DNA from: Patagioenas fasciata
Lineage: Eukaryota > Chordata > Aves > Columbiformes > Columbidae
DNA length: 64,000 nucleotides
Reading direction: 5' to 3'
Assembly (NCBI RefSeq): GCF_037038585.1
Contig: NC_092541.1
Span: 753,445 to 817,444 of the forward strand
Shown here: piece by piece, positions 23,401 through 26,400 of the stretch
Position numbering within the stretch: position 1 is the first letter of the stretch
Layout of the letters: each line of letters starts with the position of its first letter
Position numbers and translations under genes: made by a program
The notes under the pieces: model-generated
The model's input: only the letters and a program-made list of their open reading frames with translations
What the model was told of the DNA's origin: nothing
The model's database searches: none

Positions 23401-26400
23401 ACAAGGGCTGCAGCTCTGGGACACGGCCAGAGGCACATGGGGACACCACGGGGTCGGTGCCACCAGGCTGGGGTCCTATCTTGCAGGTGGCACCTCTCCC
23501 AGTCCCCTCGAAGTGCCCCATGGGTGGTGGTGGAGCTGGGCAGGAGGGCACTGGGGACAGGGACTGGGACAAGGGTGGGGGTCCTGGATCCATGCTGGGA
23601 GGGACACGGGGACAGTGCCCACCTGCAGCCAGCACCATGGGCCTGATCCTGCCCAGACTCTTGTGCCTGAGGGTCCCCTGGTGACTCTGGCGTGGCCGCC
23701 TTCCCCAGCTCGGTGTCCCCCTTCCCATCCCCATCCCCAGCACAGGGAGAGGAAGGCGCGTGGTCTCTGGAACCCACGGGGTACGAGCGGTGTCCTGAGT
23801 TAGCCAGGGCCATGGGAGCCCCCCCGCTCCCATGTGTCACCCGCACACCCGGCTCCCTCCTCCCTCCCTCCTCCTCCTCCTCCTGCCTCCCGCTGCTGCC
23901 TCGCTCGCTGCCCGGCACCCAGCGCCCCGCTGCCGGCGCCCAGCGCCCCGCGCCATGAGCCTGCGGCTGCCGCTGAAGCCGGTAAGTGGCAGGGGAAGGG
24001 GAAGAGAGACCGGGCACCCAGCGGGATCACAATGGGGGACACCTGGCGCTGCCACCCGCAGAGACCCCCAGGGCCACCCAAGGGGGAGAGAGGGACAAGG
24101 CTGCAGCTGCCGCCTGGCTCTGCGTTGGTTTGGATGCTCTTTTGGGGGCTGTTTCTTTTCCTTTTCTGCCTCAGGTCTTTGAGGTCGTGGCTTTTTATTC
24201 ATTCCTGCCTGGAAAACAACAGGGCTTGACCTGCTCTTGCTTCTGCTGCAAGACCTGGGTGCCAGGAGCAGGGATGTGGGGCAGGGCAGGTGCCCCAGTG
24301 TGGGGAGCAGCATTTGTGGCCCCAAATTCAGAACTGGCCCTACAGAGCTGCCTCTGGCCAGGCAGTATGGGGGGATTTGGCTGCTGAGGGTGGGAGTGTG
24401 GCTGGTTTTTGCAGACACAAGGCACAGGAGCACATCTCGGGTGTGCTGGGCACATTTGAGTTGCGAGATGAACCGTTTCGCTGAGATGTCCTCGTCCCCT
24501 TCCCCGCCATCCCCGCCGGAGCCGGTCCCCAAGCCCAGCCGGTGCCTCATTCCCCTCCGCAACGATTGCGTTTGGGTCACTTTTTCCTATCCCTCCCCTG
24601 TCCCTCTGCCAGCGACGTCGGCAGCTCCCGCTGCCCCATTGGTGCTCGCGTCCCCACGGGGGCCCCAGCATCGATTGCCTTTGATTAATCCACGCCGGGC
24701 TCCCGAATGCCCTTCGCAGCCGCATGTTTCCCACCCGCCCGGCCGAGCCCATGCGTCCCTGCGTGGGTGATGCCGCGGCCCCGGTCCCTGCGGGGGCGCG
24801 CGGGGTTGGGGACCCCCATGGGGGACACCCGGACTTCGAGGCTCAGCTGCCGCCTGGGGCGCCGGGCAAGCTGCAGGCAGGTAGGAGCAGGGGGACACCC
24901 GGGCGAGGGACCCACCGATGTCCCCAGGGTTGTGGGACGTGCGAGCGGCTGCTTGTGGTGGGACGGGGCCGTGGGGCTGGATCTGCTCTGGGTTGCAGCA
25001 CCAGAGGACCTTGGGAAGCCCTTGGACAAAATGGGTGTCAGTGCAGGAAGGATCAGGCCCTTTTTCTGGATCTGTAGCATTGTGGTGGTGCCCATCACCG
25101 TGGCTTTGGGACATGTGGAACGTCCTTTCTCCTCTCCTTTGCAACCTGGCAAAAGCATCCTTTGATCTGGGGGCTTGGTGCCAGGAGAGAGCACTGAGGT
25201 GCCCCTTGCCCTTCTTCCACAGGTGGCACTGGGGGGTGGCACTGCAGGGACACACAGAGGACAACAGAGTGGCAGGGACAGGCAGGGAGGATCCCATTGC
25301 CCCCAGCTCCAAAAAAGCCCCTTCAAACTACCATTTCTCAGCACCCAAAGCAGGACAGCCCCAACCTGCCCGGTCCCTTGCATTGTGTCCCCAAGGTGGC
25401 TTCAAAGCCCATCAGCAGCTGGTGTTGGTCCTGGAGGGGGGAGCTGGGACAGGCCTGGCACGTGTGGGGCCTCACTGGTGCCATGGGAGTGTGTCCCCAT
25501 GAGGGGGACAGATCTGGGGACACATGACAATATGGGAGGGTGCCTGCATGCGTGAGATGGTGTTTGCACGTTGGTGGCTGCAGGTCACCCCCTCCCTGGG
25601 GATGCACTTTCCCCTCTGCGGGCATGGAAGGATCTGAAGGGCATAAAGCAGGTGAACGGCTGCCCCAAGGGTGCTCTGGCCATCAGAGACAGACGAGGAG
25701 CTGGGCAGAGCTTGGTGTCAGCCATAGTGGGCAGCCCAACTTTTGGGCTCCTGGACAAACACTTATGGAGGCAACGAAGGTGAAGAGGGTGTAGGAAACA
25801 CACTGCATGCTCCTCGCTGCTCCACCAGCACGTGGGAGCCCTTTGCCTGGCTCCTGGCCTTATCTGACCGCTCTCCTGGTCTCCCGTCCTCCTCACACCC
25901 ATCTCCTGCAGGTGCTGTCCCTGGGCGCTGATGTCCTTCCTGAGTACAAGCTGCAGGCGCCACGGATCCACCGATGGACCATCCTGCACTACAGTCCCTT
26001 CAAGGCCGTGTGGGACTGGCTCATCCTTCTGCTGGTCATCTACACAGCCGTCTTCACCCCCTACTCGGCTGCCTTTCTCCTCAACGAAGAGCAGGTGGAG
26101 GAGAAGCACTGGGACTGCAGCTACTCCTGCGACCCGCTCAACATCATCGACCTCATCGTGGACATCATGTTCATCGTGGACATTGTCATCAACTTCCGTA
26201 CAACCTATGTCAACATCAATGACGAGGTGGTGAGCCACCCTGGCAAGATCGCCATCCACTACTTCAAGGGATGGTTCCTCATCGACATGGTCGCCGCCAT
26301 CCCCTTTGACCTGCTCATCTTCCGCTCCGGCTCTGATGAGGTACAGGCCTGGAGGACCATCAGGATGGGAGGGGACTCATGGATGGATGGGGGTGGATGG

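Follow-up and report, generated by a model that had tools for sequence, protein, structure and literature searches.

An arginine-rich open frame and a second candidate first exon in an intron of pigeon KCNH6, compared with KCNH2 exon 1b

The KCNH6 locus and two candidate first exons

The window analyzed here is a stretch of 64,000 nucleotides of Patagioenas fasciata DNA, part of contig C29 of a 1.45-Gb assembly. Its plus-strand gene is KCNH6 (ERG2). The genome contains three ERG loci, and the locus in the window is distinct from KCNH2 and KCNH7: the locus on contig C2 is KCNH2, identified via its exon 1b, and the locus on contig C10 is KCNH7 by elimination. DCAF7 lies downstream of the ERG gene of the window, at 36.9-46.0 kb, in 7 pieces, and excerpts of PMC13398235 describe kcnh6-dcaf7 as shared synteny. 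Together, the three loci, the adjoining DCAF7 and this synteny establish the gene's identity, and the initial annotation, which had called it KCNH6, was correct in this respect. The features used below are as follows.

About 4.9, 7.9, 15.2, 19.8-20.15 and 21.7-21.88 kb, plus strand: upstream coding exons of the KCNH6 model, with the linker exon at 19.8-20.15 kb
7869-8099, plus strand: PAS exon of the full-length form (Pfam PAS_9, E 8.3e-13)
21728-21883, plus strand: coding part of the TEKVTQ exon (KYRTIS...TEKVTQ, from KYRTIS), donor CAG/GTACGT, phase 0
23736-24101: weaker CpG-rich stretch holding candidate B (200-bp criterion; o/e 0.66)
23955-23981, plus strand: candidate B, ATG AGC CTG CGG CTG CCG CTG AAG CCG/GTAAGT (MSLRLPLKP), phase 0
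24284-25128: CpG island holding candidate A (500-bp criterion)
24614-24619 and 24638-24642: GACGTC palindrome and inverted CCAAT box upstream of candidate A, both consensus matches only
24724 and 24751, plus strand: out-of-frame ATGs before the start of candidate A, which give 58- and 49-codon frames when spliced to exon 6
24770-24880, plus strand: candidate A, 37 codons, 10 of them for Arg, with phase-0 donor GTAGGA
24878-24886, plus strand: donor of candidate A, CAG/GTAGGA, score 4.4 (donor matrix)
25912-26340, plus strand: VLSLGADV exon, the sixth coding exon (acceptor CTGCAG/GTG; Pfam Ion_trans)

The exons at about 4.9, 7.9 and 15.2 kb are homologous to the N-terminal exons of KCNH2 by tblastn, a placement in which two short loci were omitted. 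The PAS match falls on the 7.9-kb exon only, and the exons near 4.9 and 15.2 kb matched no Pfam family. Any form begun in the 21.9-25.9 kb intron would lack the PAS exon. The VLSLGADV exon, numbered exon 7 in the initial annotation, is the sixth coding exon by the present model. Elsewhere in the window, a strong coding-like segment on the plus strand at 62751-62966 (score 15.5), outside every gene assigned here, may belong to the gene that follows as one of its exons, and a minisatellite-like repeat at 31628-31984, near the C-terminal exons, is open in several frames. The same contig carries a large PF02422 keratin-family cluster at 5.02-6.24 Mb; genome-wide, 150 matches to PF02422 (Pfam Keratin) were scored from 342 first-look candidates, a family that comprises the beta-keratins of scales and feathers.

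Candidate A had been proposed as an ATG-led, Arg-rich frame in CpG-rich DNA within the intron before the VLSLGADV exon. Translation confirmed a stop-free frame of 37 amino acids with 10 Arg at 24770-24880, between the TEKVTQ and VLSLGADV exons, and its junction with GTG CTG TCC at 25912 keeps the frame. The CpG o/e at 24600-24799 is 0.91, which is the 95th percentile of the window's 200-bp steps. The length of 37 codons is a choice, since further in-frame ATGs occur at 24707 and 24818. The frames from the ATGs at 24724 and 24751 overlap the start of A and terminate in exon 6, which counts against A as a used exon. A transcript starting above 24707 would first meet, within 24560-24880, an in-frame ATG, that of a 58-codon version, and this counts in favor of A. 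So does the donor, whose score lies inside the range of seven located KCNH6 donors (-0.8 to 5.3, excluding exons 3 and 9, which were not clearly located, and exon 4, which was not scored). Promoter motifs were sought by consensus (CCAAT, GACGTC and others); the two matches listed above, together with one GC box in 541 nt searched, also argue for A. The region 24500-24900 matched itself alone in the genome in a repeat search that skips simple repeats. KCNH2 exon 1b carries an RXR retention signal, which the RPR and RGR triplets of A resemble.

Like A, candidate B is an ATG-led frame whose GT donor lies in phase 0 and so fits the VLSLGADV exon. It is a second possible first exon, absent from the initial annotation. 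Its start has a purine at -3 (CGCGCCATGA) and its GTAAGT donor scores 6.4 by the donor matrix, so that both start context and donor are better in B than in A; B is short, however, and has few promoter motifs. Across both strands and all three phases of the window and the KCNH2 intron, no other ATG-donor site of this kind lies in CpG context, which favors B; once the CpG condition is dropped, the plus strand of the window yields three qualifying donors, which does not. The interval between 23832 and 23955 is free of out-of-frame ATGs, which favors use of B, whereas the motif search of 23450-23985 returned only three Inr-like matches and one GATA match, and the CpG enrichment around B is weaker than that around A. 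Apart from itself, the region 23700-24020 matched a 43-bp stretch on contig C35 (simple repeats skipped). We also considered B as a cassette exon and rejected this, the two possible upstream CAG acceptors giving lengths not divisible by three (hand count).

By the 500-bp criterion, the window contains 20 CpG islands. Thirteen of these, within KCNH6, were classed, and eight of the thirteen, the island of A among them, overlap no listed exon. An intronic island is therefore not distinctive in this gene, a point in favor of a purely compositional origin of the frame, as is the finding that four of the six frames of 24690-24890 are stop-free. No Rfam family reached its gathering score in 21600-26400, and three long minus-strand frames across the island of A gave no Pfam match at E 0.01. 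A (GGGAT)n-type short tandem repeat occupies 23060-23130 of the same intron.

KCNH2 exon 1b in the same genome

According to excerpts of PMC9113952, KCNH2 exon 1b begins in intron 5 and replaces exons 1-5; the 21.9-25.9 kb intron of KCNH6 is therefore the equivalent one. Its KCNH2 counterpart in this genome measures 9949 bp. Between the TEKVTQ and VLSLGADV exons on contig C2 of this genome (G000:C2), at index 3365-3466 of the intron (loci L016/L017), it contains an intact exon 1b, MAPARRDSGDRPDGDRKSGRVRRAVRISSLVAQE, followed by GTACCG. A short, Arg-rich exon 1b in the equivalent KCNH2 intron, as the initial annotation had cited, is thus present in this very bird. The final 16 residues of the bird exon are identical to those of human 1b, an identity suggesting that ERG1b is older than the split between birds and mammals.

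We defined 1b-type frames by CpG context, a length of 20-60 codons, at least 20% Arg and a phase-0 donor no worse than the 1b donor, which scores only -1.0 by the donor matrix; this lax donor threshold was placed just below the score of the 1b donor. The KCNH2 intron contained one match, the true 1b, the KCNH6 intron one, candidate A, and the KCNH7 intron none. Because the search picks out the true exon in KCNH2 despite its poor donor, the analogy with 1b is a fair one, and that A is the sole match in its intron favors its being real. Across the whole window there were two matches on the plus strand, A included, and one on the minus strand.

Likeness in form did not extend to likeness in sequence. 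When the 16 residues before every GT were scored against the 1b motif, the best score was 72 in KCNH2 (next best, 11), as opposed to maxima of 14 in KCNH6 and 17 in KCNH7. The five best sites of the KCNH6 intron included neither A nor B, and the conserved C-terminal motif of 1b, GRVRRAVRISSLVAQE, is missing from the KCNH6 candidates. In alignments of A with bird and human 1b, respectively, 736 and 351 of 2000 shuffles of A reached the observed local score, and 329 and 331 of 2000 the global one; the alignment of bird with human 1b was reached by 0/2000. The suggestion that A and KCNH2 1b are shared by descent was therefore not borne out: the motif is lacking, and the similarity is no better than that of many shuffles and does not exceed what composition provides. 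The KCNH7 intron (19,163 bp, GC 0.36) has no 200-bp window, in steps of 10, with a GC of at least 0.55 and no 1b-like site. Outside this genome, relatives of the VLSLGADV exon were sought in two collections: a scan of viral contigs gave 0 pattern matches, and a scan of genome contigs gave 17, none of them a relative by tblastn.

Coding signal, skew and chance expectation

The GC content at the three codon positions is 0.62/0.78/0.95 in A, 0.79/0.62/0.97 in the true 1b and 0.67/0.44/1.00 in B, compared with 0.56/0.36/0.92 in the real KCNH6 and KCNH2 exons (2949 nt). A thus has the high third-position GC of coding sequence, but its second position exceeds its first, the reverse of the order in real exons and in the true 1b, and this weighs against it. 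The signal is missing where the frames of A and B are extended upstream, and also past the donor of A, so that in A it is confined to the span from ATG to donor; in particular, 24707-24769 has no coding signal to back the 58-codon version.

We expressed the third-position excess as T, the GC at the third position less the average of that at the first and second. T is 0.243 for A (0.250 from rounded values) and 0.265 for the true 1b, a similarity that supports A. When overlapping non-coding windows free of stops and similar in GC served as the null (n = 1419), a fraction of 0.0042 reached the excess of A; for B, with its third-position GC of 1.00, the fraction was 0.0134 (n = 5816 null windows), which supports B. 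A cleaner null was drawn from the window and from the introns of KCNH2 and KCNH7 (both strands, all phases): 555 distinct ATG-to-donor frames, non-coding and 20-60 codons long. It excludes the donor of A and the true 1b and may include unannotated exons. Sixteen of these frames (2.9%) reached the T of A; the counts were 8/250 at a GC of at least 0.6 and 2/115 at a GC of at least 0.68. Such rarity counts against a by-product of composition, but the third-position GC of A is to be discounted because it was noticed by eye before the test.

An unsupervised search for coding-like segments returned 24764-24880 in the frame of A, beginning 6 nt before its ATG and ending exactly at its donor, which again speaks against composition alone. 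With a score of 8.1, this segment is the highest of the intron among the 60 segments listed. Scores of at least 8.1 are nonetheless reached by 34 plus-strand segments of the window (A and known exons included) and by 33 on the minus strand, as a compositional origin would allow. The segment of B, with only 27 coding nucleotides, scores 4.2, a value common to 226 plus-strand and 247 minus-strand segments.

Switches from C to G skew adjoin several real KCNH6 exon ends; with 250-nt half-windows, peaks at 21874 and 26329 stand beside donors at 21883 and 26340. A switch at 24745-24802 (97th-99th percentile) accompanies A and favors it, but lies 78-135 nt before its donor, which does not. The switch at B, 23950-23981 (98th-99th percentile), is beside the donor and in its favor, although with 400-nt half-windows a somewhat higher peak appears at 24081, 100 nt past the donor. 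Many skew peaks have no known exon, and the switch at the true 1b is weak (84th-88th percentile of its intron).

Chance expectation was estimated from dinucleotide shuffles of the KCNH6 intron, in 300-bp blocks (n = 400) and in 150- and 300-bp blocks (n = 1000). An ATG-led frame of at least nine codons with a phase-0 donor as good as that of A occurred in 280/400 shuffles, and in CpG context in 47/400, frequencies that favor composition as the source of A; at the donor score of B, the counts were 44/400 and 9/400. With 20-60 codons, at least 20% Arg, CpG context and the lax donor, 77/1000 shuffles (150-bp blocks) and 18/1000 (300-bp blocks) contained a frame. Raising the donor to the score of A left 5/1000 and 0/1000, which tells against composition, and a frame with 27% Arg and 30-40 codons was found in 1/1000 and 0/1000. 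B-like sites arose in 24/1000 and 25/1000 shuffles, a rarity that favors B. The lax Arg and CpG test was passed by 254 of 400 shuffles of the more GC-rich KCNH2 intron; it therefore discriminates poorly at extreme GC, a further point for composition. In real sequence (both strands and three phases of the window and the KCNH2 intron, about 23 kb of CpG-context strand sequence, known exons included), A-like donors other than A and the true 1b numbered five by the lax threshold and one by the strict, few enough to favor A, and B-like donors other than B were not found. All of these figures flatter the candidates, since the thresholds derive from the candidates themselves. A is moderately above chance.

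Readings of the candidates and known PAS-less ERG forms

We narrowly prefer the null to a real exon. Chances are about even that the Arg-rich frame is a by-product of composition and that neither candidate exon is used. The DNA at 24.3-25.1 kb would then be one of several CpG-rich intronic islands in a bird gene that is itself GC-rich, and might act as a regulatory element. Its composition would make stops scarce and CGN codons plentiful and supply a fair in-phase GT site, and so give rise to an Arg-rich frame; the KCNH6 locus would make PAS-containing subunits only. What the sequence shows is the frame, its donor and phase, the islands and the lack of the 1b motif; non-use of the frame is our inference. 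The literature agrees, as far as it goes: ERG isoform accounts, in their excerpts, name KCNH2 1b and no KCNH6 b form, and the titles and abstract openings of the matches listed from the open-licence PMC literature describe no alternative first exon of KCNH6. The probabilities of all readings are matters of judgement rather than computation.

Somewhat short of even are the odds of the wider alternative, that birds or this lineage independently evolved a promoter in KCNH6 intron 5, with A or B as the first exon of a PAS-less ERG2. That A in particular is a real first exon, of an origin independent of KCNH2 1b, we regard as unlikely, though a serious competitor. The island promoter would start transcription near 24.65-24.77 kb, and splicing would join 24880 to 25912. 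The predicted ERG2 subunit would lack PAS and carry an Arg-rich N-terminus; in analogy to ERG1b, it would co-assemble with full-length subunits and speed deactivation, and its RXR-like triplets suggest that export might need partners. Its position and phase, the same as those of KCNH2 1b, speak for A, and its want of 1b homology speaks against it.

Use of B is improbable. A pyrimidine-rich leader at about 23.84-23.95 kb would precede a nine-codon exon spliced at GTAAGT to 25912, and the PAS-less ERG2 so made would have almost no N-terminal tail. Least credible of all is a diverged homologue of KCNH2 1b retained in KCNH6 from a common ancestral ERG gene: the shared intron and phase and the zebrafish Kcnh6b reported in excerpts of PMC13398235 to lack PAS are in its favor, but the motif scores and shuffled alignments make it very improbable.

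Novelty attaches to the candidate isoform alone, and the slightly preferred null would bring none; an unused exon would show how easily GC-rich bird introns yield plausible first exons. Were an exon used, vertebrate ERG would have arrived at PAS-less subunits by three or more routes (KCNH2 1b, zebrafish Kcnh6b and avian KCNH6), the ERG2 current of birds could be tuned by subunit mixing like IKr in the heart, and repeated PAS loss by alternative promoters would become a testable theme of the family. Either way, the junctions 24880-25912 and 23981-25912 are concrete, with the intact KCNH2 1b of this bird to serve as positive control.

For Kcnh6b lacking PAS, PMC13398235 cites Genge et al. (2024), whose title names the hERG1b-like transcript. 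The excerpted text of PMC7515569 attributes PAS to every KCNH channel apart from the ERG1b isoform; contrary to this, zebrafish Kcnh6b lacks it according to PMC13398235 (2026). A PAS-less KCNH6 product is therefore not outlandish. Losses of the eag domain are reported for cnidarian Erg genes in excerpts of PMC9989356. As a separate observation, a translation-blocking morpholino against Xenopus kcnh6, given in an excerpt of PMC9637099, reads MFILNFED when reverse-complemented by hand, which corresponds to a Met inside the third of the N-terminal exons in pigeon KCNH6; the frog kcnh6 model thus seems to start inside PAS.

Among known forms, KCNH2 1b is like A in its intron, its ATG-led frame, its phase-0 donor, its CpG-rich setting and its coding-like third-position GC. 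By hand counts, it has 34 codons and 8 Arg as opposed to 37 and 10, and it has 10 GC boxes in 611 nt searched as opposed to the single one of A; unlike A, it is an established isoform in the literature, as excerpts of PMC9113952 indicate. Zebrafish Kcnh6b, from the account in PMC13398235 as excerpted, is likewise a KCNH6 product without PAS, but it comes from a separate duplicate gene rather than from an alternative first exon. ERG1c (KCNH2-3.1), as outlined in excerpts of PMC9113952, resembles the candidate in that an alternative start yields a subunit without a complete PAS, and differs in that its start lies in intron 2 and its exon 3 is extended.
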